Shown here one piece after another: positions 7,806 to 25,805 of a DNA stretch of 64,000 bases. Source of the stretch: Pseudosulfitobacter sp. DSM 107133 (GTDB lineage: Bacteria; Pseudomonadota; Alphaproteobacteria; Rhodobacterales; Rhodobacteraceae); NCBI RefSeq assembly GCF_022788695.1, contig NZ_CP085155.1, positions 186,001 to 250,000 of the forward strand, written 5' to 3'. The position numbers and the translations under genes are program-made. The notes beneath the pieces are model-generated. The model saw nothing but the letters and a program-made list of their open reading frames with translations. It ran no database searches and was not told where the DNA came from. Within the stretch, counting starts at the first letter, position 1, and each line of letters starts with the position of its first letter.

Positions 7806-8825
7806 TCAGCCGTCTTTGTAATACGACGCATAGCCGTTCAGTGCGGGCGCACCGCCGAGGTGGGCATAGAGCACTTTGGACCCTTCGGGGAAGAAGCCCT
7901 TGCGCGTCAGGTCGATCATGCCTTGCATGGATTTGCCTTCGTAGACGGGGTCGGTGATCATCGCCTCTGTGCGCGCCGACAGGCGGATCGCCTCGTTGGT
8001 TTCGTCCGAGGGCACGCCATATGCCGGGTAGGCGTAGTCTTCGTTGATCACGATCTCTTCGTCGCGCACGGCGCGGCCAAGACCCACCAGCTCGGCGGTG
8101 TCGTCAACGATGCTGCGCACCTGGGCGCGGGTCTGTTCGGGCGTGCCCGAGGCATCAATGCCAATCACGCTTTCGGCGCGGTCCTGTGCGGCAAAGCCCA
8201 CGATCATGCCCGCCTGTGTCGAACCGGTGACGACGCAAACGACGATATAGTCAAACTTGAAGCCCAGCTCTTTCTCCTGCTCGGCCACCTCTTCGGCAAA
8301 GCCGATATAGCCAAGCGCGCCGTATTTGTGCACCGAAGCACCGGCAGGGATGGGATAGGGCTTGCCGCCCTTGTCCTCGACGGATTTGATCGCGTCTTCC
8401 CAGCTTTTGCGAATGCCGATGTCAAAGCCGTCATCGACCAGACGCGAATCCGCGCCCATCAGGCGGGTCATCATGATGTTGCCGACGCGGTCATAGACGG
8501 CATCGTGGTGGGGCACCCATTTCTCCTGGATCACAACGCAATCCATGCCGATTTTCGCGGCGGTGGCGGCGACCATGCGGGTGTGGTTGGACTGCACGCC
8601 GCCGATGGACACCAGCGTGTCGGCGCCCGAGGCGATGGCGTCGGGCACGATATATTCCAGCTTGCGCAGCTTGTTGCCGCCCATGGCAAGGCCCGAGTTG
8701 CAGTCTTCGCGCTTGGCATAGATTTCAACCTTGCCACCCAGGGCTTCGGTCAGGCGGGGCAGGTGTTCGATGGCGGTGCGCCCGAATGTCAGCGGGTAGC
8801 GTTCGAATTTCTCAAGCAGGGACAT
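7806..8825 (-). CDS. acdS: 1-aminocyclopropane-1-carboxylate (ACC) deaminase
   Basis: A 339-residue PLP enzyme that opens ACC, the ethylene precursor of plants, to 2-oxobutanoate and ammonia. Lys52 in [10 protein letters not shown] is the PLP lysine and Ser79 in SIGGVQSN the catalytic serine. The residues that separate true ACC deaminases from D-cysteine desulfhydrases are both of the ACC type: Tyr295-Glu296 in DPVYEGKS and Leu323 in [10 protein letters not shown]. The ATG at 8825 gives the usual family length; an in-frame extension upstream is rejected. It is divergent from an Lrp-type regulator, the known acdR-acdS arrangement. Confidence 0.93.
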
Positions 8826-8886
8826 GGTTTTCCTTCCGGTTTGGCTGTGGGGCATGTTAGGGGAAGGTGAATGAAATGTGCTTTCT

Positions 8887-8919
8887 AATTCGGGCATAAA
8901 AGATTCATATTAGCGAATT
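8887..8919. promoter_or_regulatory. possible Lrp/AcdR operator between acdS and its regulator
   Basis: Inverted half-sites AATTCG (8887-8892) and CGAATT (8914-8919) lie 27 bp apart centre to centre in the 138-bp divergent gap. The spacing suits a dimeric Lrp-type protein, but the half-sites are short, so this is only a candidate. Confidence 0.35.
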
Positions 8920-8963
8920 CAGGCAATCAGGATGTTTAGTCTTGAGAGGTTTTGGGTAGGATT

Positions 8964-9440
8964 ATGGAAGAATCTTCCGCCGACGGAATTGATAGAATCG
9001 ACCGCAGGATTCTGCGCCTGTTGCAGCGTGAGGGGCGGCTGACCAATGCCGAGATTGCGCAGCGTGTGAACATCAGCCCGGCCACCTGTCACCGCCGCAC
9101 CCGCCGTCTGTTCGAACAGGGGCATGTGCTGGATGTGCGCGGGCGGATCAATCCGGTGTCGATCGGGCTGGGCGCGTTGGTGATGGTGGGGGCGGTGCTG
9201 GACCGGTCTACGCCGGAAAGTTTTGCCGCCTTTGAACAGGCGGTGACGGCGATGCCCGAAGTGTTGGACTGCAATCTGGTGGCAGGGGATTTTGATTATC
9301 TGCTGAAAATCCGCGTGCGCGATATGGCTGATTTCAACGCCCTGCACAGCAAGATGTTGATCGCCTTGCCGGGCGTGCGCCAGATCCGCAGTTTTTTCGT
9401 GATGAAAGAGGTCAAGGACAACGCGCCCCTGCCGTTTTAA
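8964..9440 (+). CDS. acdR: Lrp/AsnC-family regulator, probably of acdS
   Basis: A 158-residue Lrp-type protein. The N-terminal helix-turn-helix (about 8-60) starts with the typical IDRIDRRILRLLQREGRLTN and has NISPATCHRRTRRL as recognition segment. The rest is a RAM/AsnC ligand-binding domain with VLDCNLVAGDFDYLLKIRV. Its divergent position next to acdS matches AcdR, the Lrp-like activator of ACC deaminase genes in other proteobacteria. The ATG at 8964 follows GGTAGG. An in-frame TTG at 8952 would add four residues. The ligand is inferred from its neighbour. Confidence 0.85.
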   Translation: MEESSADGIDRIDRRILRLLQREGRLTNAEIAQRVNISPATCHRRTRRLFEQGHVLDVRGRINPVSIGLGALVMVGAVLDRSTPESFAAFEQAVTAMPEVLDCNLVAGDFDYLLKIRVRDMADFNALHSKMLIALPGVRQIRSFFVMKEVKDNAPLPF

Positions 9441-9538: not shown

Positions 9539-10759
9539 CTAGGGGGCAAGCGCCTGTGTCAGCGCGTCATTGCGGCCCGCGACAATCTCGGCCAGAAGCG
9601 CGCCGCTTGTTGGTCCAAGGGTCAGGCCCTGATGGCCGTGGCCAAAGTTGAACCACAGCTTGTCGTGGCGCGGGGCGCGGCCCACAACAGGCAACATGCG
9701 CGGCATGCAAGGGCGCACGCCCTGCCACTGGCTGTCAGGCACCGCGCCCTCCAGCGCAAGCAGATCGCCCGCTGCGGCGGCACCGTGGGTCAGCTGAGCC
9801 AGATTGCGCGGGGCATCGGGGCGGGCCAGATGCGCGCCGGTGGTGATGCGCAAACCCTGCGCCATCGACGACACAACAACGCCGTGATCCGCCAGCAGAT
9901 AGGGCCGCGTCAGCTGGCCCTGCATCGCGTAATGCCCGTGATAGCCGCGTTTCATCACCATGGGGATGCGATAGCCCAGCTGTTTCAGCAGCGCAGGCGA
10001 CCACGGTCCCAGTGCCACCACCAGATGTTCCGCGCTGAGATGTCCGCCGTCGCGCTCGACCCGCCAGCCGGTTGCGGTTGGGGTGATCGTTGTCACGGTG
10101 GTTTGCAGGATCGTGCCGCCGCGTGCCGTGAACAGGTTTGCATAGGCGCGTATCAATGCGCCGGGGTCCGATGTGCTCCAGGTTTCGTCCCAGATGATCG
10201 CACCGGCGGGGGCGCGGGTCAGGCTCGGATCTTCGGCGCGCAGCTCTGCACCGCCGAGCGTACGCAGTTTCAGCCCGTGGGCCGCGGCCTGATTTTCCGC
10301 CAGGCGCGCACGGGTGTCGAAGCCTTTGGCGGTGTCATAAATCTCGCCCAGTCCGGTGCGGCGGATCAACGCTTCGGCCCCTGAATCCGCAATCAGGCTG
10401 GCGTGGTCCTCTGTCGCGCGCGCCATGAGGGCAGCATAGTGCTGCGTAATGGCGGCATGGCGGGCCGGTGCCGAGTGATGGTAATAGGCCAGCAACGCCT
10501 GCGCCGATCCGGGCAGGGCCAGCGGGTCAAGGCGCATGTCGTTGCTGCGCCCCAGCCCGTAGCGGATCAGCGTCCCGAAATCGCGGGGCATGGCATAGGG
10601 GGCGCGGGCCTCGTTCTGGATGACGCCCGCGTTGCCGTGGCTGGTTTCCTCGCCGGGGCCGCGCGCATCCACCACGCGCACCGCATGGCCCTGTGCCTGC
10701 AATGCCAATGCTGCGCCAATGCCGATGCTGCCGGCGCCCAGAACGATGAAATCCCCCAT
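9539..10759 (-). CDS. FAD-dependent D-amino-acid oxidoreductase (DadA/DAO family)
   Basis: A 406-residue flavoprotein. The N-terminal FAD-binding motif is FIVLGAGSIGIGAALALQAQG, one residue off the usual DadA start, followed by SHGNAG, the typical DadA/DAO family segment. The C-terminal WFNFGHGHQGLTLGPTSG is the family's second FAD contact. Such enzymes oxidise D-amino acids, or related secondary amines, to imino acids and so to oxo acids. It is the last gene of the 9.5-22 kb operon, 5 bases after ridA-like gene. The RidA neighbour, which hydrolyses imines, fits an imine-producing oxidase. Exact substrate is unknown. Confidence 0.82.
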   Translation of the reverse strand: MGDFIVLGAGSIGIGAALALQAQGHAVRVVDARGPGEETSHGNAGVIQNEARAPYAMPRDFGTLIRYGLGRSNDMRLDPLALPGSAQALLAYYHHSAPARHAAITQHYAALMARATEDHASLIADSGAEALIRRTGLGEIYDTAKGFDTRARLAENQAAAHGLKLRTLGGAELRAEDPSLTRAPAGAIIWDETWSTSDPGALIRAYANLFTARGGTILQTTVTTITPTATGWRVERDGGHLSAEHLVVALGPWSPALLKQLGYRIPMVMKRGYHGHYAMQGQLTRPYLLADHGVVVSSMAQGLRITTGAHLARPDAPRNLAQLTHGAAAAGDLLALEGAVPDSQWQGVRPCMPRMLPVVGRAPRHDKLWFNFGHGHQGLTLGPTSGALLAEIVAGRNDALTQALAP

Positions 10760-10764
10760 CTGTG

Positions 10765-11097
10765 TCAGCCCTGCGCAATCACGGTGATTTCGACCTTGGC
10801 GTCGATCATCAGGGCGGCGGCCAGCGTGGTGCGCACCGGATAGGGCTGGGGAAAGGCCGCGGCATAGACCGCGTTGAAATCGGCGAAATCCGCCGGATCG
10901 GTCAGGTAGCAGGTAGCCGAGATCACATGCGACAGGTCCAGCCCTTCGGTGGCCAGCGTCGCCTTGATATTGGCAATGCAGTTTTCGGTCTGGGCGGTGA
11001 TGCCTTCAGGGATCTTGCCATTGGTGTCAAAGCCCAGCTCGCCCGACAGGTACAGGGTGTTGTCGATGCGGCGTGTTTTCGAGAGGGGGATATTCAT
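10765..11097 (-). CDS. RidA/YjgF-family enamine/imine deaminase
   Basis: A 110-residue Rid-family protein, slightly shorter than E. coli RidA. The conserved arginine that contacts the substrate carboxylate is present in YPVRTTLAA, and LYLSGELGFD and ATCYLTD match family segments. Rid proteins hydrolyse reactive enamines and imines released by PLP dehydratases and amino-acid oxidases. Both kinds of enzyme are in the same operon (the D-serine ammonia-lyase and the flavoprotein), which explains its presence. Confidence 0.85.
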   Translation of the reverse strand: MNIPLSKTRRIDNTLYLSGELGFDTNGKIPEGITAQTENCIANIKATLATEGLDLSHVISATCYLTDPADFADFNAVYAAAFPQPYPVRTTLAAALMIDAKVEITVIAQG

Positions 11098-11108
11098 GGT
11101 GGTCTCTT

Positions 11109-12599
11109 TCAGTTGAAGGTCAGGAATTCATCCGCCTGCGACAGCGGTGGCGCGGCGCGCAGGGTGGCAAAGTCGGGGGCAGGCACCGCCATATCGGTGC
11201 CTGCTATGATCGCTTCCAGTTCGGCGGCGACGGCCAGCACCCCCAGATCGTCGTGACGGCGGCCCACGATTTGCAAACCGAACGGCATGGCGTTCGCATC
11301 CATACCGCAGGGAATGGTAATAGACGGATGCCCCGCAATGGTCGAGGCATAGGCCATCGCCAGCCAGTGATAATAGCTTTTGGTCGGCGTGCCATCAATT
11401 TCGCTCGGGTACAGCTCGCGCCACGGGCGGGGGCTGAGGGTGACGGCGGGTGATATGATGAAGTCATGCGTTTCAAAGAACGCCTGCCAGTCGCGGTGAT
11501 AGCGGCTTTGGGCGAACAGGGCCTGTGCCACGTCTTCGGCGGAATAGCTGCGGCCTTCGCGGACGTTGTCAGCGACGTTGGGGCCGACCTGATCGGGGGT
11601 TTCGTCATAAAGTTTTGCGTGGACACCCAGGAACTGCACACCGCGCAGGACGGAAAAGATGCGGTCGGCGTCGGTGCAATCGGGGGTGGCTTCGGTCATG
11701 TCGCCCATGAACGGTGCCAGCTTGGGCAGGATCGCGCGGAAATGGTTGCGGATCAGGCGTTCGGTGGGGGCAAAGCCGTAATCTTCGGTGACCGCGATGC
11801 GCAGGGATGTCAGATCGCGGCGCGGCAGGTTGGCAAAGCCAGCCGCATCCCACGGTGTGCGTCCGTCGATCACGGTGGTGAACGGGTCGTTGCGGTCGGG
11901 CCGTGCCAGCACGGACAGCATCAGCCCCGCATCCGCCACGCTGCGCGCCATCGGGCCGGAGGTGGGCATGGGGATCAGCCCCGCCGCGCGGGTGTTGCCC
12001 GGCACCACGCCGGGGCTGGGCCGGTAGCCCACGATGCCGCAATAGGCCGCCGGGTTGCGCAAGCTGCCGCCGGTGTCCGATCCTGTGGCCAGAGGGGCGT
12101 ATTCGCAGGCCAGCGCCACTGCCGAGCCGCCCGATGATCCGGCACAAGTGCGTGTCAGGTCGTAGGGGTTTGCGGTCACGCCGTTGACGCGGTTGCGGGT
12201 GTTGCCGCCCGCACTCCATTCCGGAGTATTGGTCTTGCCCATCGGCAGACCGCCTGCGGCACGCATGGCGGCAACAATGGCGTCGTCGCCGGTGGCGATG
12301 TTGTCGGCAAAGGCTTCGGACCCGAAGGTGGTGGGCAGGCCCGTCACGTCGATCATGTCCTTCACGGTAAAGGGCAGGCCGTGCAACGCCCCCAAGGGCG
12401 CACCCGACATCACGGCGGTTTCGGCCTTTTTCGCCCCCTCCAGCATCCCGTCAAAGTCGCGCGCGATCAGGGCGTTCACCGCGTGGTCCAGCGTTTCAAC
12501 CTGCGCGATGCACGCCTCGGCCAGCTCGACCGGCGACAATTGTTTGCGCGCGATCAGGCGGCGGGCGTCGATGGCGCCAAGGCTGGCGGGGTTGGTCAT
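11109..12599 (-). CDS. amidase-signature hydrolase
   Basis: A 496-residue amidase-signature enzyme. The Ser-cisSer-Lys triad is visible: Lys80 in FTVKDMIDV, Ser155 in AGSSGGSA and the nucleophile Ser179 in GSDTGGSLRNPA. It hydrolyses a carboxamide to acid and ammonia or amine; the substrate cannot be told from sequence. There is no signal peptide, so it acts in the cytoplasm on imported substrate. Its start overlaps the stop of the upstream D-serine ammonia-lyase gene by 4 bases. In this operon, and with the malonate genes next door, release of a dicarboxylic acid such as malonate from an amide is a reasonable guess. Confidence 0.85.
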   Translation of the reverse strand: MTNPASLGAIDARRLIARKQLSPVELAEACIAQVETLDHAVNALIARDFDGMLEGAKKAETAVMSGAPLGALHGLPFTVKDMIDVTGLPTTFGSEAFADNIATGDDAIVAAMRAAGGLPMGKTNTPEWSAGGNTRNRVNGVTANPYDLTRTCAGSSGGSAVALACEYAPLATGSDTGGSLRNPAAYCGIVGYRPSPGVVPGNTRAAGLIPMPTSGPMARSVADAGLMLSVLARPDRNDPFTTVIDGRTPWDAAGFANLPRRDLTSLRIAVTEDYGFAPTERLIRNHFRAILPKLAPFMGDMTEATPDCTDADRIFSVLRGVQFLGVHAKLYDETPDQVGPNVADNVREGRSYSAEDVAQALFAQSRYHRDWQAFFETHDFIISPAVTLSPRPWRELYPSEIDGTPTKSYYHWLAMAYASTIAGHPSITIPCGMDANAMPFGLQIVGRRHDDLGVLAVAAELEAIIAGTDMAVPAPDFATLRAAPPLSQADEFLTFN

Positions 12600-13906
12600 G
12601 GGGTGATCTCCTGTGGCAGGTCAAGGGCGGCGGGCATGGCTGCGGCAGCCTCCAGAAAGTCACGGTGCGCGGTGTCAGGGACGAACAGGCCGCCGGTGGC
12701 CCAGACGACGTGGACGATGTTTTCGGGCGCGACATGGGGCATGTGAGCCGTGCGAAACGCCGCACCGGCCGCGCTGTTCATCAGATGGTGCGGTCCGGCA
12801 AAGCCGGCGGTGGCGGATGGTTCGAATCGCGGCCCGTGCGCATGGCCCGCCGCGACCCAACGCAGCATGTCCGCGTCGCCCACGGTGCAGACACCCGCCA
12901 GACGGTCGTGCATGCGCGCGCGCACCAGCGGCGACAGGGTGGCGACCGCCATGCCGTCAGCCTCGGTCCGGTTGCTGAGGCCCAGATCATGGACGGACGG
13001 CGCATCGAACGCCATATGGCACAGGGCCGAGGCAGATTGCTGCGGCTCGACGAAAAAGCTGTGCGCATGGGCGCCGAACACCGCCCGCGCGCCATAGGCG
13101 ATGCCACCCGGCGCGCCGCCGATGCCGCAGGGCAGGTACAGGCACAGCGGGCGGTCGGGGCCGATGGCAATGCCCATCGCGTCCAGTTGCGCGGCCAGTT
13201 CCGCCGCTGCCGCACTGTAGCCGCGAAACAGCAGTTCCGAGGATTCATCGTCAACGAAATAGCTGTCGGGATCATCCGCCGTGGCATCGCGCGCGGCGGC
13301 AACGGCGGTGGTGTAATCCGCGGTGTGCAGCACCACCTCGACCCCCAGCTTGCGCAGGCGCTCGACCTTCCACGGCTTGGCGTCGCTGGACATATGCACG
13401 ACACAGGCATACCCAAGCGCGCGCGCGGCGATGCCGACGCTCAGGCCCAGATTGCCGGTGGATCCCACAGCAATCGTGCGGGCCGCGAAGAAATCGCGCA
13501 TGTTGGCCAGATCGGTGAGGGGCGCGTCGGGGGCCAGCACCCCTGCCGCGCGGGCCTGGGTGACGGCGCACATGAACACCTCGAACAGGCCGCCGCGCGC
13601 CTTGATGGACCCGGCCACCGGCAGGGCGTGGTCGCCCTTGATCAGCAGGGTGCCTGCATAATCGCCAAAGGCTCCGGCAGGGGCCGCGATCAGGTCCGAG
13701 GCGATGCGCCCGCCCGAGGCTTCCAATTCAGGGAACAGCCGCGCCAACAGCGAGGCCAGCATGGCCCAGTCATCGCGGGCCTGGTCCAGATCGGCGCGCG
13801 CCACGGGATCGGGGGCGGGCACATAGGCGGGATTGACCCACAGGGCCGACTGCCCCGCACGCACGGTGTCGCGCAGGGCGATCATGTCCTGAGGGGCAAT
13901 GGGCAC
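12596..13906 (-). CDS. dsdA: D-serine ammonia-lyase
   Basis: A 436-residue fold-type II PLP enzyme of the DsdA family, converting D-serine to pyruvate and ammonia. The PLP lysine is Lys102 in AGSIKARGG, with GSTGNLG as the substrate loop and CGIGGAPGG as the phosphate loop; length matches DsdA. It has a start 4 bases downstream of the M20 gene stop region and overlaps the amidase start, so translation is coupled. The dehydration makes 2-aminoacrylate, which RidA two genes later can clear. Activity on other D-hydroxy or beta-substituted D-amino acids is possible. Confidence 0.83.
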   Translation of the reverse strand: MPIAPQDMIALRDTVRAGQSALWVNPAYVPAPDPVARADLDQARDDWAMLASLLARLFPELEASGGRIASDLIAAPAGAFGDYAGTLLIKGDHALPVAGSIKARGGLFEVFMCAVTQARAAGVLAPDAPLTDLANMRDFFAARTIAVGSTGNLGLSVGIAARALGYACVVHMSSDAKPWKVERLRKLGVEVVLHTADYTTAVAAARDATADDPDSYFVDDESSELLFRGYSAAAAELAAQLDAMGIAIGPDRPLCLYLPCGIGGAPGGIAYGARAVFGAHAHSFFVEPQQSASALCHMAFDAPSVHDLGLSNRTEADGMAVATLSPLVRARMHDRLAGVCTVGDADMLRWVAAGHAHGPRFEPSATAGFAGPHHLMNSAAGAAFRTAHMPHVAPENIVHVVWATGGLFVPDTAHRDFLEAAAAMPAALDLPQEITP

Positions 13907-13910: not shown

Positions 13911-15299
13911 TCAATCCTTTGGCAGGCCTTGTTCGGCCAGATCGGCGAACAGTCCGGTCATTGCCACCAACGCCTGACGCGACAGGGATTTCAGGATATG
14001 TTCGTTGGGCGCGTGCTGCGAGCAACCCGCATAGGAATGCGGCACCCAGATCGTCGGCAGGCCCAGCACCTCGGCAAAGCAATCGTTGGGCAGCGAGCCG
14101 CCAAGGTTCGGCAGGATGTCCGGCGCTGTGCCCACGCTTTTTTCAATCGACGCGGTGGCGAAACGGACCATCGGGTGGTCGGGGTCCAGCCGTGTCGCGG
14201 GGAAGCTGTTGCGGCTGTGCGCGACGATCTTGACCTTGTCGAAGCCTTCGCGGTCCAGATGGCGGCGCAGGGCGGGCAGGATGTCGTCGACCTCTGTGCC
14301 GACCACAAACCGCAACTGGCAGGTGGCGCGGGCAGATCCGGCGATGGCGTTGACGGGCGCGGCGGGCACGCCTGCGGTCATGGCCAGAATGGCAAAGCTG
14401 TTCCAGCCGAACACACGCTCGACCGGGGTCAGGTCCGCCTCGCCCCAATCGGCGTCCAGGTCGATGCCGGTGTCGTGGGCGGGCAGGGCGGCCAGCACCT
14501 CGCGGATGCGGGGGGTCAGGCTGGTCGGGCGCCACTCCGGCACGCGGATCTGGCCGCGCGCGTCGGTGATGCTGGCCAAGGCGTGCGACAGGATCATGGC
14601 GGGGTCCGCCAGCAGGCCGCCGAAGTTGCCCGAGTGGTTGGCGCCCTCGCGCAGGTTGACCTCGAGGTCAAAGCTGACGCCGCCGCGCGATCCGGTGAAG
14701 ATCGTGGGCGCGGCAGGGCGCAGGCGCGGGCCGTCGGACGCGATGAACACATCCGCGCTGAGCAGGCCGGCGTTGGCGGTGCAGAATTCCTTCAGGCCGG
14801 GGGATCCGGCCTCTTCGCCCATTTCGATGATGACCTTGGCGTTAAAGCCCAAGTGGCCCTGCGCCTTCAGCACCGCCTGCATTGCACGCAGGTTGATCAG
14901 GTGCTGCACCTTGTTGTCCGCCGCACCGCGCCCGTACAGGCGGTCGTCTTCCTCGATCAGCTCGAACGGGGTCAGCCCCTCGCGCCACTGGCCCTCTTGC
15001 GCGCGCACCACGTCGCCGTGGCCATAGGTCAGAACCGTGGGCAGGCTTGCATCCTCGATCCGCTCGGCGGTCAGGATGGGCGGGCCGTCGGGCACGGGAT
15101 TGTCGTGAAATTGGCAGGTGAACCCCATGGCTTCCAGCATCGGGGCCATGTCGTCGTGCAGATAGGCGTGCAGGTGCGGCTTGCCGCGTGGGTCCTGGCT
15201 TTCTGTTGGGCGCGACACCAGCGTTGCCAGCTCGCGTTGGAAATCACCATCGTCGAAATAGATTTCGATATTGGCGCGGGCAGAGTCTTGCAGGGTCAT
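13911..15299 (-). CDS. M20-family metallo-amidohydrolase/dipeptidase
   Basis: A 462-residue M20 enzyme (ArgE/DapE/carnosinase group). Metal-binding segments are YGHGDVV (about 90), GRGAADNK with its bridging aspartate, and EMGEEAGSPGL with the catalytic and metal glutamates. A lid/dimerisation domain is inserted mid-protein. Members cleave dipeptides or N-acyl amino acids. It lacks a signal peptide. Its start is directly followed upstream by the stop of ggt (no gap), and both belong to the importer operon, so it probably splits the Cys-Gly-type dipeptide or acyl amino acid left after the first cleavage. Confidence 0.85.
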   Translation of the reverse strand: MTLQDSARANIEIYFDDGDFQRELATLVSRPTESQDPRGKPHLHAYLHDDMAPMLEAMGFTCQFHDNPVPDGPPILTAERIEDASLPTVLTYGHGDVVRAQEGQWREGLTPFELIEEDDRLYGRGAADNKVQHLINLRAMQAVLKAQGHLGFNAKVIIEMGEEAGSPGLKEFCTANAGLLSADVFIASDGPRLRPAAPTIFTGSRGGVSFDLEVNLREGANHSGNFGGLLADPAMILSHALASITDARGQIRVPEWRPTSLTPRIREVLAALPAHDTGIDLDADWGEADLTPVERVFGWNSFAILAMTAGVPAAPVNAIAGSARATCQLRFVVGTEVDDILPALRRHLDREGFDKVKIVAHSRNSFPATRLDPDHPMVRFATASIEKSVGTAPDILPNLGGSLPNDCFAEVLGLPTIWVPHSYAGCSQHAPNEHILKSLSRQALVAMTGLFADLAEQGLPKD

Positions 15300-16889: not shown

Positions 16890-18523
16890 GCGACGGCCGG
16901 GGGCAGGGTAGAGACATCGGGCACCACCCAATGCTTGCCCGGCTGCGCGTCCAACAGCATTTTGGTATAGGGGTGCGACGGCGCGCCAAAGACCTGTTCG
17001 ACGGTGCCGCGTTCCACCACATCGCCCTGTTGCATGACGATCAGCGTGTCACAAACCTGGGCGGCGACGCGCAGGTCGTGGGTGATGAACAGGACGGTCA
17101 GCCCCATCCGGTCGCGGATTTCATTCAGCAATTTCAGCACCTCCTTTTGCACGGAGACATCCAAGGCCGAAACCGCCTCGTCCGCAATCAGGATTTTCGG
17201 CTCGACCATCAGGGCGCGTGCGATGCAGATCCGCTGGCGTTGACCGCCCGAGAACTGGTTGGGATAGCGGTTCAGCACCTCGGGATCGAGCCGCACGATC
17301 TTCATCAGCTCGCGGGCACGTTGCATGGCCTTCGCGCGGTTTTCGCCAAAGTTCACCGGCCCTTCGACCAGCTGGTCGCCAATGGTGCGGCGCGGGTTGA
17401 GCGAACCGTAGGGGTCCTGAAACACGATCTGGATGTGCTTGCGATAGGGGTGCAGGTCGTGGCGCGACATCAGGGCAATGTCCTTGCCCTCGACCGAGAC
17501 CACACCGCTTTCGGGGTCTTCCAGACGGATCAGGCATTTGACCAGCGTCGACTTGCCCGAGCCGCTTTCGCCCACGATGCCCAGGGTTTCGCCCTGATGG
17601 ACGGTAAAGTTGACGTCCTTGCAGGCGTGGACCGTCCGCGAGGGACGGAACATGCCGCCAGCGACGTGGTAGGTCTTGTTCAGGTTCGACACCTTCAGCA
17701 CTTCGCGGCTGGTGATCGGTTCGGGCACGTCGCGGGTGCGGCGCGGCACGGCGTCGATCAGCAGGCGGGTGTAGGGGTGTTGCGGACGGTTCAGGACCTC
17801 TTCGGCGGTGCCCTGTTCGACGATTTTGCCGTGCTGCATCACCACGACGCGGTCGGCAATTTCGGCCACCACGTCAAAGTCGTGGGTGACGAACATGATG
17901 CCCGCGTCATGCTTTTCGCGCAGTTCCTTGAACAGGTGCAAAATCTGTTGCTGCGTGGACAGGTCCAGCGCGGTTGTCGGCTCGTCCGCGATCAGCAGGG
18001 CCGGGTCCAGCGCAAGGGCCATCGCAATCACGATACGCTGGCGTTGACCGCCGGAAAGCTGGTGCGGGTAGGAGTTGTAGACGCGCGGCGGGTCGGGCAG
18101 GTGGACCTCTTCCAGCAGTCTGATCGTGCGGGCCTTGCGTTCGGACGCGCCCAGATCGGTGTGTTGCTGGAACATCTCCTCGATCTGGTCACCCACGGTA
18201 TAGCAGGGGTTCAGCGCCGACATCGGTTCCTGAAAGATCATCGCCATGCGACGCCCGCGCAAGGCGCTGTGCGCGCGCTTGGACAGCTTCAGCAGGTCGT
18301 GCCCGTCAAAGCGGATCTCCCCCTGCGAGGGTTTCAGCGCCTGTGGCAGCAGGCCCATGGTGGTGAAGGCGGTGATCGACTTGCCCGAGCCGCTTTCACC
18401 CACGATACAGACGATTTCCTTTGGCATCACTTGCAGCGACAGGTTTTCGACAGCATGGGCGCGGTCGGCGGCCTTGGGCAGGTCAACGGTCAGGTTGTTG
18501 ATGGACAGGATGGGATCGGTCAT
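16886..18523 (-). CDS. ABC importer ATPase, fused DppD-DppF (GsiA type)
   Basis: A 545-residue protein with two complete ATPase domains. The first has Walker [13 protein letters not shown], signature LSGGQRQRI and Walker [13 protein letters not shown]. The second has [22 protein letters not shown] and [12 protein letters not shown]. Each is followed by the oligopeptide/dipeptide-type C-terminal segment ([15 protein letters not shown]). A single fused ATPase is the arrangement of the glutathione importer GsiA. The ATG at 18523 shares one base with the stop of the permease gene; a long in-frame extension upstream reads through the permease in the wrong frame and is rejected. Confidence 0.92.
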
Positions 18524-19434
18524 CAGTTGCGCCCCTCTGGTGCGGTGACATCGCGCAGGCCGTCGCCCAGCATGTTGATGGCGAGGACAAGAAAGAACAG
18601 CGCGACGCCGGGAATGGTGATCAGCCAGGGTTCGAACAGCAGCATGTCCTTGCCTTCGGAAATCATCAGGCCCCAGGACGGGGTAGGCGGTTGTACGCCA
18701 AGGCCCAGGAAGGACAGCGCCGCCTCGAGGATGATGGCGTGGGCCATTTCCAGCGTGAAAATCACGATCAGGTGGTTCATCACGTTGGGCAGGATGTCCT
18801 TGACCAGAATGCGCGGCAGCGAGGCGCCCAGCACTTCGGCGGCGGCGACATATTCCTGTTTGCGCACCTGCATTGTGGCCGAGCGCAGCACCACGGCAAA
18901 GCGGTCCCACAGCAGCAGACCCAGAACCGAAACGACAACGACCAGCGAGCCGCCGAACAGCGCCACAACGGCCAGCGCCACCAGTACGACGGGCATGGCC
19001 AGACGCACGTTGATCAGGAAGGTCACGATCATGTCGACGCGGCCACCGAAATAGCCCGCCAGAATGCCCAGCGTCGACCCGATGATGCACGAGATCACAG
19101 CGGCCATGATGCCGATCATCAGCGAGATGCGCGCGCCATATGCCAGCCGCGCCCAGAAGTCGCGGCCCAGCCCGTCGGTGCCCAGCCAGTGTTCGGATGT
19201 GCCGCCCAGAAACACCGGGGGTTTCATGCGCGCCATAAGGCTTTGCTGGTAGGGGTCGAACTGGGTCAGCAGCGGGGCAAAGATTGCGATGCCCACGACG
19301 ATCAGCATGACGACGGCACCGAACATCAGACCCTTGTGGCGCAGCGCGCGTTTGCGCATGGCCTGAGCGGGTGTCAGCGGTTTGTCGCGGGGGGCCTGCA
19401 CGGGCAGGTCGGCGGATGTGGTTGTATCGGTCAT
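18523..19434 (-). CDS. ABC importer permease, DppC/GsiD type
   Basis: A 303-residue inner-membrane permease with about six hydrophobic segments. It has an N-terminal OppC-type segment (MRKRALRHKGLMFGAVVMLI) and the EAA loop EVLGASLPRILVKDILPN that contacts the ATPase. It partners the DppB-type gene 8 bases upstream to form the channel for a peptide-like substrate. Confidence 0.92.
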   Translation of the reverse strand: MTDTTTSADLPVQAPRDKPLTPAQAMRKRALRHKGLMFGAVVMLIVVGIAIFAPLLTQFDPYQQSLMARMKPPVFLGGTSEHWLGTDGLGRDFWARLAYGARISLMIGIMAAVISCIIGSTLGILAGYFGGRVDMIVTFLINVRLAMPVVLVALAVVALFGGSLVVVVSVLGLLLWDRFAVVLRSATMQVRKQEYVAAAEVLGASLPRILVKDILPNVMNHLIVIFTLEMAHAIILEAALSFLGLGVQPPTPSWGLMISEGKDMLLFEPWLITIPGVALFFLVLAINMLGDGLRDVTAPEGRN

Positions 19435-19442: not shown

Positions 19443-20360
19443 TCAGCCCACGCGCAGCCGTGGGTCCAGCCAGGCGTTCAGAACGTCAGCCAGGAAGGTG
19501 AACAGAATATAGAAGGTGGAAAAGATCAGGATCAGCGCCTGCATCGTCGGCAGGTCGTTCCGCGCGATGGATTCCCATGCCAGATAGCCGGCCCCATGCA
19601 GCGCAAAGACGGTTTCGACGACGATCGAGCCGCCCAGCATAAAGCCCATCTGCACCGCGGCCAGGCTGACCACGGGAATGATCGCGTTGCGCAGGGCGTG
19701 TTTGAACATCACCTTGCGGGTGCGCAGCCCCTTGGCGCGCGCGGTGCGGATATAGTCGGACGACAGCACTTCCATCATCCCTGCCCGCGTCAGACGCATG
19801 ATGGCAGGGGTGGCGTAATAGCCCAGCACGACCGTGGGCAGCACGAAATGCGCCCATGTTTCATTGCCCGACGCGGGCAGCAGCCGCAGCTTGATCGAAA
19901 AGATCACGATCAGGATCAGACCGAACCAGAACGACGGGATGGCCTGGCCGACCACCGACAGAAACAGCGCAAAGCGGTCGATCAGCGAATTGGGATTGGC
20001 CGCCGCGGCAACCCCCAGCGGAATCGCCACCGCCAGCGCCAGTGTGATGGCGAACAGGCCCAGCTTCATGGTGACGGTCAGCCGGTCGGCAATCAGCTCG
20101 GTCACGGGAATGTCGAAATACCATGAATCGCCCAGATCACCGGTGACCGCCGAGCCCAGCCAGTCGCCGTATTGTACGATCATCGGCCGGTCAAAGCCGT
20201 AGCGTTCGTTGACCAGCGCGATATCTTCCGAGCTGGCGTTTTCGCCGGCAATGGCCACAGCCGGATCGCCCGCCATGAACAACAGGCTGAAACTGATGAA
20301 TGAAACGGTCAGGGCCACCAGCAAGGCAAGGCCAAGACGTTTAAGTATGAAGACGGCCAT
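19443..20360 (-). CDS. ABC importer permease, DppB/GsiC type
   Basis: A 305-residue inner-membrane protein with about six hydrophobic segments and the classic DppB start MAVFILKRLGLALLVALTVS. The EAA loop RTARAKGLRTRKVMFKHALRN lies at about residues 207-227. It is the first permease of the operon, 69 bases after the binding-protein gene and downstream of a stem-loop. Confidence 0.92.
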   Translation of the reverse strand: MAVFILKRLGLALLVALTVSFISFSLLFMAGDPAVAIAGENASSEDIALVNERYGFDRPMIVQYGDWLGSAVTGDLGDSWYFDIPVTELIADRLTVTMKLGLFAITLALAVAIPLGVAAAANPNSLIDRFALFLSVVGQAIPSFWFGLILIVIFSIKLRLLPASGNETWAHFVLPTVVLGYYATPAIMRLTRAGMMEVLSSDYIRTARAKGLRTRKVMFKHALRNAIIPVVSLAAVQMGFMLGGSIVVETVFALHGAGYLAWESIARNDLPTMQALILIFSTFYILFTFLADVLNAWLDPRLRVG

Positions 20361-20423: not shown

Positions 20424-20429
20424 CAAAGG

Positions 20430-21944
20430 TTACTTCCAGGCGAAGTCTGCCAGACGGATGACTTCATCATCCGTGGGCGTAAAGTCGACTTCTTTGCTGA
20501 GCACATAGTTCACGTTGTATGTCCACAGCGGCACCCAGTACGCTTGATCCGCGATTTTGGCATGTGCCATGGAATACAGTGCCTGGCGTTCGGCGCGGTC
20601 GGTGATCGAACCGGCCTTTTTCACCCAGTCCATGATTTCGGGGTCATGTGCATCGTCCAGCGGGCCGCCGGTAAAGAATTCACCCGTGATGGCCGACACG
20701 TCGGGCAGCGAATAGGACCCCCAGGTCTGGAACGAAATTGCGACTTCTTTCTTCTCGCGCTTTTCGCGCAGGGCGGCGTATTTGAGATAGTTGAAGTTGG
20801 TCGTGATGCCGACCTCGTTCAGGAACCCCATCAGCGCTTCGGCATAGGGCCGGTCACGATAGGCGTAGAAGTCGATTTCGAAACCGTCGGGATAGCCGGC
20901 CTCGGCCAGCAACGCCCTGGCTTTTTCGGGGTCGTAGTCATAGGTTGTCACGCTGAGGTCACAGCCGAACTGGATCGGGGCGCAGCCTGCGTTCACCACC
21001 TGCGAAGATCCTTTGACCAGCGCGTCGACAATCGCCTGACGGTCGATGGCGTGATAGATCGCCTGACGCACCTTTTGCTTGGTCATCGGCCCGTCGGGAT
21101 CAGCCGCACCTGCCGCATCCATGGTGATATAGCCCACGCGGATCGCCTGGGCATTGACCACGTCGAAACGGTTATCCATTTGCGCCAGTTTCTCGGCCTG
21201 ATCGGCGGGCACGTTCCACAGGAAATCCAGACCGCCGTTGAACAGTTCGGCCACCTGAGTGTTCATATCGGGGATGGTTTTGATCTCGATCTTGCCAACC
21301 TTCGCCTTGCCTTTTGGGCTGTCGTAATAATCGGGATTGGCGCTAAGTTCGTAGCGTTTGCCCGGCTCGACCTTGTCGACCTTGAAGGGGCCGGTGCCAA
21401 TTGGCTTGGTAGCCATGCCGCTGGGGCCGACCTCGGCGTAATATTCGTTGGGATACATGACGACGACGCTGGCCAGATAATCCTCGGCCGGCGGGAAAGG
21501 CGCGTTCAGGTTGACGCGCACGGTATAGTCGTCGACCTTTTCGGCGCCTTTCATCCAGCTGACGTTGGTCATGACCTTGACGCCGTTGTCGGGGTTCACA
21601 ACGTAGTTGATGGTATAGACGACATCGTCGGCGTTGAACGCCTCGCCGTTGTGAAATTTCACACCTTCGCGCAGTTTGAATTCAACCGTGACATCGTCGA
21701 TCCATGTCCATTCGGTCGCCAGATTGCCTTTCATCTCGCCTGAAACGGGATCGCGATACAGCAAGCCGTCCCAGACGCCACGCGTGAACAGGATGCCTTC
21801 GCGGGCAGAGTTGTAATAGTTGTCGACCGATTCCAGTTCTTTGGTCACGGCCATATGCAGGATGTCGTCTGCCTTGTTGGCAAAGGCAGGTGCGGCAACG
21901 GCCAAAGTCAGGGCGGTGCCGGTCATCAATGTTCTAAATGTCAT
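20430..21944 (-). CDS. periplasmic solute-binding protein, family 5 (dipeptide/glutathione type)
   Basis: A 504-residue SBP_bac_5 protein with a clear signal peptide MTFRTLMTGTALTLAVAAPAFA cleaved after AFA. The family segments LREGVKFHNGEAFNADDVVYT (about 93-113) and DPEKARALLAEAGYPDGFEI are present. It delivers a peptide-like ligand to the DppBC channel. It is the first gene of the ten-gene operon, with the palindrome TTGTATACAA 48 bp before its start, so it is likely controlled by the GntR regulator encoded just upstream. Confidence 0.92.
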   Translation of the reverse strand: MTFRTLMTGTALTLAVAAPAFANKADDILHMAVTKELESVDNYYNSAREGILFTRGVWDGLLYRDPVSGEMKGNLATEWTWIDDVTVEFKLREGVKFHNGEAFNADDVVYTINYVVNPDNGVKVMTNVSWMKGAEKVDDYTVRVNLNAPFPPAEDYLASVVVMYPNEYYAEVGPSGMATKPIGTGPFKVDKVEPGKRYELSANPDYYDSPKGKAKVGKIEIKTIPDMNTQVAELFNGGLDFLWNVPADQAEKLAQMDNRFDVVNAQAIRVGYITMDAAGAADPDGPMTKQKVRQAIYHAIDRQAIVDALVKGSSQVVNAGCAPIQFGCDLSVTTYDYDPEKARALLAEAGYPDGFEIDFYAYRDRPYAEALMGFLNEVGITTNFNYLKYAALREKREKKEVAISFQTWGSYSLPDVSAITGEFFTGGPLDDAHDPEIMDWVKKAGSITDRAERQALYSMAHAKIADQAYWVPLWTYNVNYVLSKEVDFTPTDDEVIRLADFAWK

Positions 21945-21992: not shown

Positions 21993-22002
21993 TTGTATAC
22001 AA
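21993..22002. promoter_or_regulatory. GntR operator at the importer promoter
   Basis: Perfect palindrome TTGTATACAA, identical to that at 22909-22918 before matA. TTGTA-TACAA is the kind of site bound by FCD-type GntR proteins and resembles, from memory, the MatR operator described in Rhizobium. It lies 48 bp before the binding-protein start. Confidence 0.7.
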
Positions 22003-22203: not shown

Positions 22204-22860
22204 TCAGGATGCGGCGGTTTTGAGACTTGCCATCAGGCTGTGGAACCGCTCGCCCTGAACGGCAACATGGCTGCGCAACGCATCGGCCGCCGCATCGGAA
22301 TCGCCCGACATCAGCGCCGAAACGATTGCCTCGTGTTCGGTCAGCGACTGTGCCATGCGCCCGCGATAGCGCAGCTGCTGTCGCCGGAAGGGACGCAGGC
22401 GTTTTTGCAGCTTCAGGCTTTCCTGCTCCAGAAAACTGTTGCCCGATTCGCGGTAGATCGTGGCGTGGAACCGCTCGTTTTCGGTGTAATACAGGTCTGC
22501 GTCCTGCGCGTCCGCGGCGACCCGGCAGCGTGCATTGGCCAGGCGCAGTTCGTCAAAGGCTGCATCCGAGATACGCCGTGCGGCCAGTCGGGCACAGACG
22601 GCTTCCAGCTCGGCCATGACCTCGAACATCTCAAGCAGCTCCAGCGGTCCGGGCTGGCGCACAAAGGCACCGCGTCGCGGGATCAACGTGACCAGGCCCG
22701 AGCTTTCCAGACGTTGCAGCGCTTCGCGCAGCGGGGTGCGCGAGACGCCGAACTGATCGGCCAGCCGCACCTCGTCCAGCCTGTCACCGTCGGCAAAGTT
22801 GCCGTTGAAAATCATATGCTCCAGTGAGCTTGCGATGTTTACCGCACTGCGTTGTTCCAT
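22204..22860 (-). CDS. matR: GntR-family regulator, FCD type (MatR-like)
   Basis: A 218-residue regulator. The winged helix (about 5-70) contains LADQFGVSRTPLREALQRLE, the standard GntR recognition helix, then SSGLVTLIPRRGAFV. The C-terminal helical FCD domain carries the metal/ligand histidines (NERFHATIY, TEHEAIV, RSHVAVQGE). It is divergent from matAB, as MatR is in malonate operons, and upstream of the importer operon on the same strand. Identical palindromes at both promoters argue that it controls both; the effector is probably malonate or a derived compound. Confidence 0.8.
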   Translation of the reverse strand: MEQRSAVNIASSLEHMIFNGNFADGDRLDEVRLADQFGVSRTPLREALQRLESSGLVTLIPRRGAFVRQPGPLELLEMFEVMAELEAVCARLAARRISDAAFDELRLANARCRVAADAQDADLYYTENERFHATIYRESGNSFLEQESLKLQKRLRPFRRQQLRYRGRMAQSLTEHEAIVSALMSGDSDAAADALRSHVAVQGERFHSLMASLKTAAS

Positions 22861-22908
22861 GGTTCAAAACGCTAGACCGTCGATTTGAGGGAAGCAATAA
22901 TTATTATC

Positions 22909-22918
22909 TTGTATACAA
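22909..22918. promoter_or_regulatory. GntR operator in the matR-matA gap
   Basis: Perfect palindrome TTGTATACAA within TATCTTGTATACAAAA, 48 bp before the matR start and 111 bp before matA, so it can serve both divergent promoters. Confidence 0.72.
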
Positions 22919-23029
22919 AAATATTGACCTAAAAAACAGGATGGGCCTATGATTGAGGCAGCACCGGCGTCTGCGCGCCGCAATGCGACCCTGTTTGGGG
23001 CGTGTTTTTACGCGACGAGGATTTGAACA

Positions 23030-24283
23030 ATGACCATTCTTGCCGATTTGCTTTCCACCATGTTCGAGCGGCGCTACCGGAACATCGGTCAGGGGCGGAC
23101 ATCGTCGCGCCCGATCGAAAGTCTGATGGACGATTTGCTGGGCAGTGCGGGGGAAACCTCGGAACAGGCATTGGCACAGGACATTCTGGGACAGTACGCC
23201 AGTCTGGATGACAGCGGAAAGCTGGGATTCCTGCGTCACCTTGCGCGGGACATGAACATTGACCCCGAAGCCGTGCGTTCGGCGTTGGACGCTTATGAAC
23301 AGGCGCCGTCCAAGCTGACTTATCGCGCCTTTATGGGCGCGGCGGAACCACGGCGGCAGGAACTGGTGCGCCGGTTGAACCGGGTGCCGGGGGCGACCGG
23401 TGCGCTGGTGCGGATGCGTGCCGACCTGTTGCGCCTGGCGGGGGATGACCCGGAACTGGCCGCGCTTGATCTGGATTTCAGGCATTTGTTCATGTCGTGG
23501 TTCAACCGCGGATTTCTGGTGCTGCGCCCGATCAACTGGGAAAGCCCCGCACATATTCTGGAAAAGATCATTGCCTATGAAGCGGTGCACGCCATTCACA
23601 GCTGGGACGACCTGCGCCGCCGCCTGCAACCGCAAGACCGTCGCTGCTTTGCCTTTTTCCATCCGGCCATGCCTGACGAGCCGTTGATTTTTGTCGAAGT
23701 GGCGCTGACCAAGGGCATTCCCGGTTCGGTTCAGGCACTGCTGGCCGAAGACCGCGCCGCATTGGACCCCGAAGCCTGCGACACCGCCGTATTCTATTCT
23801 ATTTCGAACTGTCAGGCAGGGCTGGCCAGCATTTCGTTCGGCAATTCACTGATCAAACAAGTGGCGGCGGATCTGTCGTCAGAGTTGCAGCGGGTGAAAA
23901 CCTTTGTCACCCTGTCCCCGATCCCCTTGCTGACAAAATGGGCCGATCAAGAAGGCATTGAGATGCCTGACGATCCCGAAGCCCGCCGCGCCCTTGCCGC
24001 GTATTACCTGCTAAAGGCAAAGGGGCACGGCGATGCGCCTTTTGATCCGGTGGCCCGCTTCCATCTGGGCAATGGCGCGCTGGTACATGCGGTGCATGCC
24101 GATGCCGATGCCTCGGACAACGGTGCGGCACAATCGGGCGGTGTGATGGTAAATTATCTTTATGATCTTGCCCAAGTTGCGGTAAACCACGAAAACTTTG
24201 CGGCCAAACGCAAGATCGTCGCCAGTTCCGAGGTGACCTCGCTGGCCAAAACATTCGCCAACGCGACCAGCGCGGAAAGGTAA
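23030..24283 (+). CDS. matA: malonyl-CoA decarboxylase
   Basis: A 417-residue MLYCD-family enzyme that decarboxylates malonyl-CoA to acetyl-CoA. The N-terminal helical domain (to about 170) and the acetyltransferase-like C-terminal domain are both recognisable, with RFHLGNGALVHAVHADAD carrying the catalytic histidine region and NYLYDLAQVAVNHE near the end. There is no targeting peptide, as expected in bacteria. The ATG at 23030 follows GAGGA. It is 4 bases upstream of matB, and together they turn free malonate into acetyl-CoA. Confidence 0.9.
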   Translation: MTILADLLSTMFERRYRNIGQGRTSSRPIESLMDDLLGSAGETSEQALAQDILGQYASLDDSGKLGFLRHLARDMNIDPEAVRSALDAYEQAPSKLTYRAFMGAAEPRRQELVRRLNRVPGATGALVRMRADLLRLAGDDPELAALDLDFRHLFMSWFNRGFLVLRPINWESPAHILEKIIAYEAVHAIHSWDDLRRRLQPQDRRCFAFFHPAMPDEPLIFVEVALTKGIPGSVQALLAEDRAALDPEACDTAVFYSISNCQAGLASISFGNSLIKQVAADLSSELQRVKTFVTLSPIPLLTKWADQEGIEMPDDPEARRALAAYYLLKAKGHGDAPFDPVARFHLGNGALVHAVHADADASDNGAAQSGGVMVNYLYDLAQVAVNHENFAAKRKIVASSEVTSLAKTFANATSAER

Positions 24284-24287
24284 CCCT

Positions 24288-25805
24288 ATGGCCAACCCCC
24301 TTTATGATAACCTGTTTGGCAAACACGCCGGGCGCGATGCGCCGTTTCTGCATCTGGTCGATGGCACGGTTATTTCCTATCGCGATTTTCTGGCGCAAAC
24401 CGCGCAGCTGGCGCATGTGCTGACGGGGCTGGGCCTGTCGCCGGGGGAGCGGGTTGCGGTGCAGGTGCACAAATCTCCGCAGGCGCTGGCGCTGTGTGCT
24501 GCCTGTGCGCAGGCCGGTCTGGTGTTCTTGCCGCTGAACACGGCCTATACCACCGACGAGCTGACCTATTTCATTGAAAACAGCGGCGCGGCACTGGTGG
24601 TTTGCGACGCGGGCAAAACCGCATCGCTGACGCCTGTGGCCGCAGGGCTGGGTGCCAAGGTTGAAACGCTGAACGCTGATGGCGGCGGATCGCTGACGGA
24701 CAAGGCGGCGGCTGCGCCCGACAGCTTTGACACCGTGGCGCGCAATGCCGACGATCTGGCGGCGTTTCTGTATACCTCGGGAACCACGGGCCGTTCGAAA
24801 GGGGCGATGCTGACCCAGAGCAACCTGTTGTCAAATGCGCAGACGCTGGCGCAGGAATGGCAGTTCAGCGCGGATGACGTTCTGTTACATGCGTTGCCGA
24901 TTTTCCACACGCACGGGCTGTTTGTGGCCACCAATGTGACGCTGGTCGCGGGTGGCAGCATGATCTTCATGCCCGGTTTCGATCTGGACGAGATCCTGGC
25001 CCAGATGCCCCGCGCCACGTCGATGATGGGCGTTCCTACCTTTTACACCCGCCTGCTGGATGATGCGCGCTTTACCAAAGAGGCGGCCGCGCACATGCGT
25101 TTGTTCATTTCGGGGTCGGCGCCGCTGCTGGCGGAGACCCATGTGCAGTTTGAAACCCGCACCGGTCAGCGCATTCTGGAACGCTATGGCATGACAGAGA
25201 CCAATATGAACACCTCGAACCCATACGCGGGCGAACGCCGCGCGGGCACCGTGGGCTTTCCCTTGCCGGGGGTCGAACTGAAGATCACCAACCCCGAAAC
25301 CGGCGAGACCTTGCCACAGGGCGAGGTCGGCGTGATTGAAGTGCGCGGGCCGAATGTGTTCAAGGGCTATTGGCAGATGCCCGAAAAAACTGCGGATGAA
25401 TTGCGTGCCGACGGTTTTTTCATCACCGGCGATCTGGGAGTGATCGACGAGGCGGGCTATGTCAGCATTGTTGGCCGGGGCAAGGACCTGATTATTTCGG
25501 GCGGTTACAATATCTATCCCAAAGAGGTCGAACTGGTGCTGGACGAACAAGGCGGCGTGCTGGAAAGCGCTGTGATCGGCGTGCCGCATCCTGATTTTGG
25601 TGAAACGGTTGTGGGCGTTCTGGTGGCGCAGCCGGGCCAGTCGCCGGACACAGATGCGATTATGGAGGCCGTCAAGGGACCGCTGGCACGGTTCAAACAC
25701 CCACGCCGGCTGGTCGTGGTGGACAGCCTGCCGCGCAACACCATGGGCAAGGTGCAAAAGAACCTGCTGCGCGACGCCTATAAGGACATGTTCATGCTTG
25801 CGTAG
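24288..25805 (+). CDS. matB: malonyl-CoA synthetase
   Basis: A 505-residue acyl-activating enzyme. The AMP-binding P-loop is LYTSGTTGRSKGA (about 160-172), GYNIYPKEVE is the hinge region and NTMGKVQK near the C-terminus carries the adenylation lysine. MatB joins malonate to CoA with ATP. The close pairing with matA and divergent GntR gene is the standard malonate-use unit. The end lies 27 bases from the convergent stop of the first polysaccharide gene. Confidence 0.92.
   Translation: MANPLYDNLFGKHAGRDAPFLHLVDGTVISYRDFLAQTAQLAHVLTGLGLSPGERVAVQVHKSPQALALCAACAQAGLVFLPLNTAYTTDELTYFIENSGAALVVCDAGKTASLTPVAAGLGAKVETLNADGGGSLTDKAAAAPDSFDTVARNADDLAAFLYTSGTTGRSKGAMLTQSNLLSNAQTLAQEWQFSADDVLLHALPIFHTHGLFVATNVTLVAGGSMIFMPGFDLDEILAQMPRATSMMGVPTFYTRLLDDARFTKEAAAHMRLFISGSAPLLAETHVQFETRTGQRILERYGMTETNMNTSNPYAGERRAGTVGFPLPGVELKITNPETGETLPQGEVGVIEVRGPNVFKGYWQMPEKTADELRADGFFITGDLGVIDEAGYVSIVGRGKDLIISGGYNIYPKEVELVLDEQGGVLESAVIGVPHPDFGETVVGVLVAQPGQSPDTDAIMEAVKGPLARFKHPRRLVVVDSLPRNTMGKVQKNLLRDAYKDMFMLA

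Follow-up and report, generated by a model that had tools for sequence, protein, structure and literature searches.

The region analysed lies at positions 7806..25805 of a 64,000-nt window from Pseudosulfitobacter sp. DSM 107133 (NZ_CP085155.1, positions 186,001 to 250,000); the window is that whole stretch, and coordinates refer to it. On its minus strand the region carries genes for a solute-binding protein (SBP), the permeases OppB and OppC, a fused OppDF ATPase, a gamma-glutamyltransferase (GGT)-family protein, an M20 metallohydrolase, D-serine ammonia-lyase, an amidase, RidA and a D-amino-acid-type oxidoreductase (DAO). From OppB to DAO the gaps did not exceed 11 bases and several genes overlapped; the spacing between SBP and OppB was 69 bases. 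This importer operon was flanked on one side by an Lrp-type regulator (plus strand) and 1-aminocyclopropane-1-carboxylate (ACC) deaminase (minus strand), and on the other by a GntR/FCD regulator (minus strand) followed by matA-matB (plus strand). All of the parts named in an initial annotation of this DNA (importer, GGT family, M20, amidase, D-serine ammonia-lyase, DAO, RidA, ACC deaminase and MatAB) were recovered as profile matches. On balance, the locus is interpreted as a unit for the uptake and hydrolysis of N-malonyl-ACC and, probably, of N-malonyl-D-amino acids. This interpretation is based on gene context and sequence. The genes present, the operator, the co-localisation, the altered pocket of the GGT-family protein and the kinship of the regulator were observed; the substrate, the inducer and the roles of the hydrolases are inferred from them.

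Regulation of the importer operon and matAB

Two exact copies of the palindrome TTGTATACAA were present in the 64 kb, one at 21993 and the other at 22909, compared with no occurrence in 100 dinucleotide shuffles, and the earlier proposal that malonate activation and decarboxylation fall under the operator of the importer was thereby upheld. TTGTATACAA is presumably the MatR operator of R. trifolii; a full-text literature search for it returned a single match, in an unrelated paper. When SBP genes from other loci were scanned for TTGTATACAA sites with no more than one mismatch, within 300 bp upstream, these were present for all 16 GntR-flanked SBPs (14 distinct genomes, since L086 and L163 denote one place, and L090 and L167 another), for one of 10 IclR-flanked SBPs and for none of 39 others. 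Clusters on plasmids of Salipiger and Paroceanicella also had one-mismatch sites. Similarly, an exact or one-mismatch site lay beside gntR at all nine fetched gntR loci adjoining mat or TRAP-type (tripartite ATP-independent periplasmic) transporter genes (L163, L164, L166, L168, L169, L170, L220, L221 and L233), the TRAP genes having been scanned in L164 and judged by size at the other loci. An exact TTGTATACAA was also seen at 9718 of L044, an Amylibacter metagenome-assembled genome, 274 bp before an M20 homologue, the importer cluster being absent from the stretch read.

Phylogenetic trees (29 GntR proteins, and 31 in a second tree) placed the window regulator with four close relatives, each of which, like it, adjoins matAB as well as the importer. 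Next in the tree were a second copy from the same genome (G000:C1) and a Roseibium copy whose neighbourhood was unread (support 92/89 and 90/87). A separate clade (100/99) was made up of regulators from the clusters in Rhizobium, Pannonibacter, Cohaesibacter, Salipiger and Paroceanicella, and the rhizobial matAB regulators formed a third, more distant from the window protein; the root was weakly supported (79/69 in the 31-protein tree). From this grouping, it appears that in the window lineage the importer cluster was brought, along with matAB, under a regulator of the MatR type. The only MatA match in the window genome was the one in this window. The second GntR copy (L164 5005-8730) was 69% identical, diverged from a DctP-DctQ-DctM set of TRAP genes, which presumably carries malonate, and had an exact TTGTATACAA of its own; a transposase fragment lay beside it and matAB was not seen there.

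ACC deaminase passed the equivalog test for this enzyme (TIGR01274). Its translation contained the motifs VYEGKS and AHLGG, both of which are also present in L239-L241, and the Glu and Leu within them are presumably the substrate-discriminating residues of ACC deaminase. The protein was 97% identical to one encoded on a P. pseudonitzschiae plasmid. A divergent Lrp-type gene stood beside ACC deaminase in 17 of 20 alphaproteobacterial regions, which were sampled from 22 outside the window's own genome. An E1/transketolase-like gene was repeatedly found adjoining ACC deaminase (L090 1505-3889, L241 17257-19635, L240 17154-19544), and in R. johnstonii (L245) this was so even without an importer cluster; a distant homologue (27%) occupied the same place in Palleronia, where it is annotated mdeB. 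We take mdeB to be the name of a 2-oxobutyrate dehydrogenase E1; the E1-like gene is possibly of this kind, which would suit the product of ACC deaminase.

The coordinates of all features are collected in Table 1, in which the annotation of plasmid L239 served as the model for the start points of GGT and OppDF. Immediately adjoining ACC deaminase (window 774-7733) were all the genes of the beta-hydroxyaspartate cycle, bhcR, bhcABC and bhcD, each over its NCBIfam cut-off, with an NCS1 permease among them; plasmid p5 of P. pseudonitzschiae likewise has bhcABCD homologues adjoining its ACC deaminase. A functional tie between the bhc genes and the importer operon was considered and set aside, and they are treated as neighbours only.

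Table 1. Features of the analysed region in window coordinates, with profile scores in bits
Feature	Position	Strand	Evidence
ACC deaminase	7806..8825	-	TIGR01274 549.8 (cut-off 392); open reading frame from 8897, the Met at 8825 being the likely start
Lrp/AsnC-family regulator, AcdR-like	8964..9440	+	PF01037, PF13404; divergent from ACC deaminase
FAD-dependent D-amino-acid-type oxidoreductase (DAO, DadA-like)	9539..10759	-	PF01266 174; no NCBIfam model above cut-off
RidA/Rid-family enamine/imine deaminase	10765..11097	-	PF01042 91.4; TIGR00004 78.5, under cut-off 106
Amidase-signature hydrolase	11109..12599	-	PF01425 282.5; closest solved relatives are urethanases
D-serine ammonia-lyase family PLP (pyridoxal phosphate) enzyme	12596..13906	-	NF002823 431.7 (cut-off 246); TIGR02035 349.2, under cut-off 368
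M20 metallohydrolase (PRK07079 group)	13911..15299	-	NF005478 685.2 (cut-off 330)
GGT-family Ntn hydrolase, gamma-glutamyl pocket absent	15300..16889	-	PF01019 304; TIGR00066 244.7, under cut-off 357.9
Fused OppD-OppF ATPase	16886..18523	-	Two ABC_tran stretches and oligo_HPY
OppC-type permease	18523..19434	-	PF00528, PF12911
OppB-type permease	19443..20360	-	PF00528, PF19300
Solute-binding protein, SBP_bac_5	20430..21944	-	PF00496 271.6
Operator TTGTATACAA before SBP operon	21993..22002		48 nt from SBP start codon
GntR/FCD regulator, MatR-type	22204..22860	-	PF00392, PF07729; trees
Operator TTGTATACAA between gntR and matA	22909..22918		Exact palindrome
Malonyl-CoA decarboxylase (MatA)	23030..24283	+	PF05292, PF17408
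Malonyl-CoA synthase (MatB)	24288..25805	+	NF005702 831.4 (cut-off 558)

Hydrolases and the binding protein

The initial annotation had named a gamma-glutamyltransferase; the family membership stood, and the gamma-glutamyl pocket was not conserved. An alignment was made of 49 GGT sequences, comprising the window protein and open reading frames above the length limit with more than 45% identity from loci L021-L113 and L219-L238. This showed that the catalytic Thr and the oxyanion Gly-Gly were kept throughout (49/49). Passages of a published account of E. coli GGT assign roles in gamma-glutamate binding to R114, N411, Q430, D433, S462 and S463 (PMC6769717), and in the window protein all six of these were replaced (R114->G, N411->L, Q430->G, D433->W, S462->M and S463->N). 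Four of the replacements (L at N411, G at Q430, W at D433 and N at S463) were invariant among the 49 sequences, while the R114 position held G in 46 and A in three, and the S462 position M in 47 and S in two. According to portions of a further source, a change at D433 alone confers glutaryl-acylase activity on the E. coli enzyme (PMC8062742). By this pocket test, it is unlikely that the window protein is a gamma-glutamyl enzyme, and proteins with this changed pocket, which carry the label gamma-glutamyltransferase in public records, are probably mislabelled.

GGT with M20 is the classical glutathione pair, and the use of gamma-glutamyl-ACC or glutathione, with GGT removing gamma-glutamate and M20 splitting Cys-Gly-type dipeptides, would account for that pairing here. 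The importer matched Gsi and Dpp models, albeit under their cut-offs, and GsiB (YliB) and HbpA were among the nearest solved relatives of the SBP, all of which would agree with such a role. However, besides the replacement of all six binding residues, the Rhizobium form of the cluster that is linked to ACC deaminase had no GGT gene in the stretches read, and this alternative is considered very improbable; the gamma-glutamyl arm of the earlier hypothesis is accordingly unlikely. As regards the SBP itself, a loop in DppA and OppA carries an alpha-ammonium-binding Asp; the 47 cluster SBPs read for this loop had TWGS[YNF]S and no such Asp where the motif was visible. As the motif was not visible in every sequence and the reading was made without aligning DppA, this comparison is not relied on.

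The M20 protein, which was present in every ACC-deaminase- or mat-linked cluster form tabulated, is most likely the amide hydrolase, and the best candidate for it. Across 108 aligned sequences (the window protein and open reading frames above the length limit from the same ranges of loci), the metal-ligand and carboxylate-binding Arg positions were conserved without exception. The closest solved relatives were Sso-CP2 and the dipeptidases carnosinase, CNDP2 and DUG1. The acidic residue that precedes Gly-Ser in carnosinase was replaced (N in 106/108), and two Asp positions that a review, in the part available, assigns to the substrate amine of M20 dipeptidases (PMC11173852) were kept. The conserved metal-ligand and Arg positions would fit any substrate of the type acyl-NH-CHR-COOH, dipeptides included. 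A TauE/SafE-type exporter was inserted after M20 in several clusters (L035 11366-12181, L090 11351-12172). The amidase was considered as a relative of malonamidase E2 and rejected, the best match reaching 73 bits over residues 66-201 only, against 195 for urethanase.

Recurrence of the cluster in other genomes

A scan of named genomes by M20 alignment gave at least 80 loci. The whole gene set, ACC deaminase included, was present on P. pseudonitzschiae plasmid p5; two of the five same-genus genomes searched (G001 and G005) had no close M20 homologue. The closest relatives with a name, Sulfitobacter DFL-14 and EhC04, retained matAB-gntR-importer-GGT-M20-amidase. On plasmids of Salipiger abyssi and Paroceanicella the cluster stood together with D-serine ammonia-lyase, ACC deaminase and the E1-like gene; D-serine ammonia-lyase also accompanied it in Cohaesibacter and in one further genome. 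The cluster of L240 was without GGT, RidA and DAO, and that of Pannonibacter (L104) without ACC deaminase. In G020, from the family of the window, ACC deaminase stood beside a different Opp importer and two M20 genes, one of them 63% identical (L027). Three loci titled Bacillus subtilis, Nocardioides marinus and Anaerolineae (L055, L056 and L095) carried M20 genes 59-65% identical to that of the window, the first two within whole importer/GGT/M20 clusters; these are possibly mislabelled or contaminated assemblies.

Five loci from Rhizobium, Rhizobiaceae and Shinella (L084, L086, L088, L090 and L102) had ACC deaminase and Lrp near gntR-SBP-OppBC-OppDF-M20, with an amidase in four (the stretch of L084 ends too early) and a GGT gene in none. 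In one of these, Shinella sp. UYSO24 (L102 4095-12947), SBP, OppB, OppDF and the amidase were each read as two open reading frames, indicating either broken genes or sequence errors. Two 20 kb regions brought the importer cluster, ACC deaminase and the mat genes together: Rhizobium sp. BK602 (L163), with AMID-M20-Opp-SBP, gntR, the E1-like gene, ACC deaminase, MatC, matBA and a second gntR, and G524 (L221), with an IclR-flanked M20-GGT-Opp-SBP cluster, ACC deaminase and matBA.

The association was evaluated across the 247 genomes of the BK602 family, where 38 SBP matches were found in 34 genomes. With the query genome excluded, ACC deaminase was present in all eight genomes whose SBP shared 58% identity or more with the query, compared with 45/246 overall, and in five of the eight it lay within 11 kb of the cluster. 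In four of the nine genomes with both, again without the query genome, MatB (at least 66% identity) was no more than 14 kb away from an SBP match; two of the four SBPs concerned were only 47-48% identical. Rough P values for these three associations were 7e-7 (presence of ACC deaminase), 7e-11 (11 kb) and 8e-8 (MatB, 14 kb), calculated with distance limits chosen after the data had been seen and with genomes treated as independent. MatB matches below 66% were taken, without a test, to belong to another family (40 were measured, none of which was within 200 kb of an SBP, and the rest were not entered); including the weaker matches gave 4/24 instead of 4/9 (P = 7e-6). Of the 38 SBP matches, 20 regions were opened, revealing ACC deaminase in six and matA or matB in three, with L221 having all. 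ACC deaminase was within 5 kb of matB in three of 19 genomes with both, and all three had the cluster (Fisher P = 0.058).

Several observations weigh against the malonyl-conjugate reading, or against a tight link among its parts. ACC deaminase had no TTGTATACAA-type site near it in the window and is a neighbour of the importer operon, outside TTGTATACAA control and with its own Lrp-type regulator; the regulon originally drawn to include it therefore holds for the importer and matAB, which share an operator, and not for ACC deaminase. A consensus scan placed promoter-like sites on the plus strand only, around the second operator, and returned no sigma-70-like promoter before the SBP operon on the minus strand. 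The kinship of M20 with dipeptidases belongs here also. ACC deaminase was not seen in the stretches fetched from Sulfitobacter DFL-14 and EhC04, and D-serine ammonia-lyase, RidA and DAO were also absent from that of EhC04. Three genomes with the Rhizobium-type cluster (G065, G067 and G069) had no MatA match. From the loci of the M20 scan, 23 genomes with GGT/M20 clusters were hand-chosen (19 IclR-flanked, with one IclR family, two Cohaesibacter with GntR, and L040 and L103, where neither kind of regulator was called); of these, eight had ACC deaminase and 20 had matA, neither was adjacent to the cluster GGT gene in any of the 23, and the closest on the same contig was about 130 kb away. The 20 alphaproteobacterial ACC deaminase regions included a related SBP/M20 cluster only once (L205, with D-serine ammonia-lyase), and different Opp importers were seen in L201, L217 and L218. 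Seven plasmid ACC deaminase regions were opened, from 60 matches listed of 211 records, and three had the cluster (L239, L240 and L241) while four had none. The genus of the window is probably diatom-associated, and a literature search for malonyl-ACC or ACC deaminase in a diatom setting yielded nothing relevant among the papers listed. On this evidence, the importer/M20 core may serve a broader purpose, the ACC and malonate modules having been added to it in particular lineages.

These observations bear on two further explanations. The first is general import and hydrolysis of dipeptides and N-acyl amino acids, where ACC deaminase, matAB and the D-amino-acid genes were gathered as plant or algal niche genes on shared accessory replicons. 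It would explain why the solved M20 relatives are dipeptidases, why clusters occur on plasmids, and why, among the roseobacter-type genomes checked, neither ACC deaminase nor matA adjoins the IclR-flanked form. However, the MatR-type operator links importer and matAB by regulation, beyond mere place, and the co-localisation recurs in different arrangements and two orders; this explanation is judged unlikely, though of appreciable weight. The second supposes two separate diets, free malonate and D-amino-acid peptides, with malonate serving the MatR-type regulator merely as a cue for plant or algal matter, at which the peptide importer is switched on. D-serine ammonia-lyase and DAO would suit D-peptides, some clusters under a related regulator had no matAB in the stretch read (L084, L088, L104, L240 and L241), and the three genomes without MatA agree with it, but matB in L221 adjoins a cluster with its own IclR regulator, which a mere cue does not explain. 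This possibility is thought rather improbable.

Proposed pathway and known systems

The malonyl-conjugate reading is preferred because ACC deaminase, D-amino-acid enzymes, amide hydrolases, a dedicated importer and malonate activation sharing the operator of that importer are what conjugate hydrolysis would need. A malonyl conjugate would bind the SBP and be imported by OppBC-OppDF, and its amide would be hydrolysed in the cytoplasm, most likely by M20; other acyl amides or amino-acid parts may fall to the amidase and to the GGT-family enzyme with its altered pocket. Malonate so freed would be converted to malonyl-CoA by MatB and to acetyl-CoA by MatA; ACC would yield 2-oxobutyrate and ammonia through ACC deaminase, and D-amino acids would pass to D-serine ammonia-lyase or DAO, with RidA removing imines. 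The MatR-type regulator would act at the two TTGTATACAA sites, one ahead of the importer operon and one separating gntR from matAB, so that both units would be induced by malonate or by a malonyl compound, with ACC deaminase remaining under its own Lrp-type regulator.

The hypothesis of the initial annotation, which concerned N-malonyl and gamma-glutamyl amides of ACC and D-amino acids, was thus partly supported. Its malonyl arm is probable by context, given the shared operator, the MatR-type grouping and the recurrence of ACC deaminase and matB in the BK602 family. The D-amino-acid arm is plausible and weaker, resting on the recurrence of D-serine ammonia-lyase in clusters linked to ACC deaminase and on a plant N-malonyltransferase activity that reportedly acts on ACC as well as on D-amino acids (PMC6921899, PMC7432710). 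The stronger proposition, that this is a dedicated pathway with one importer, a new M20 N-malonyl-amino-acid hydrolase, a second acylase of GGT fold and a recruited MatR linking malonate catabolism, is put forward tentatively, its chances being somewhat short of even. The protein families are all known and the novelty lies in the proposed pathway; no bacterial pathway for the use of malonyl-ACC or malonyl-D-amino acids was found described in the literature searched, which left most subscription papers outside it.

One source describes N-malonyl-ACC as the principal conjugate of ACC in plants (PMC4227472); the malonyl-ACC transferase is described as uncloned (PMC4227472, PMC7432710) and the hydrolase as unknown (PMC4227472). 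If bacteria hydrolyse malonyl-ACC, they would draw on the pool by which plants dispose of ACC, and gain access to an ethylene precursor hitherto regarded as storage or a dead end. There would be a second substrate pool for plant growth promotion by ACC deaminase, and an enzyme for malonyl-ACC hydrolysis would become available.

Among known systems, the plant ACC N-malonyltransferase system malonylates ACC and D-amino acids, according to the portions available (PMC6921899, PMC7432710), and is the reverse of the present proposal; a single such activity is said there to accept both (PMC6921899, PMC7432710, PMC10452086). Unlike the window, it is a plant system, biosynthetic, and its gene is unidentified. 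The Gsi glutathione importer with GGT shares an SBP_bac_5/Opp importer and a GGT-family protein with the window, which falls under the Gsi model cut-offs and lacks the gamma-glutamyl pocket. Class IV cephalosporin acylases and Asp433 mutants of GGT resemble the window protein in having the GGT fold with the alpha-amino-binding Asp433 changed; the window protein differs in having Trp for Asp and altered carboxylate-binding residues also. The acdR-acdS system has the same divergent pair of Lrp and ACC deaminase, although in the window this pair stands where an importer/hydrolase operon ends. The MatR-matABC malonate regulon of rhizobia has the GntR/FCD regulator and matAB in common with the window, together with the presumed likeness of TTGTATACAA to the MatR operator. 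It differs in that the second operator of the window adds a peptide-type importer and enzymes for amides and D-amino acids, and in that neither MatC nor TRAP was seen beside the window matAB, the TRAP set being located at G000:C1 with its own copy of the regulator.

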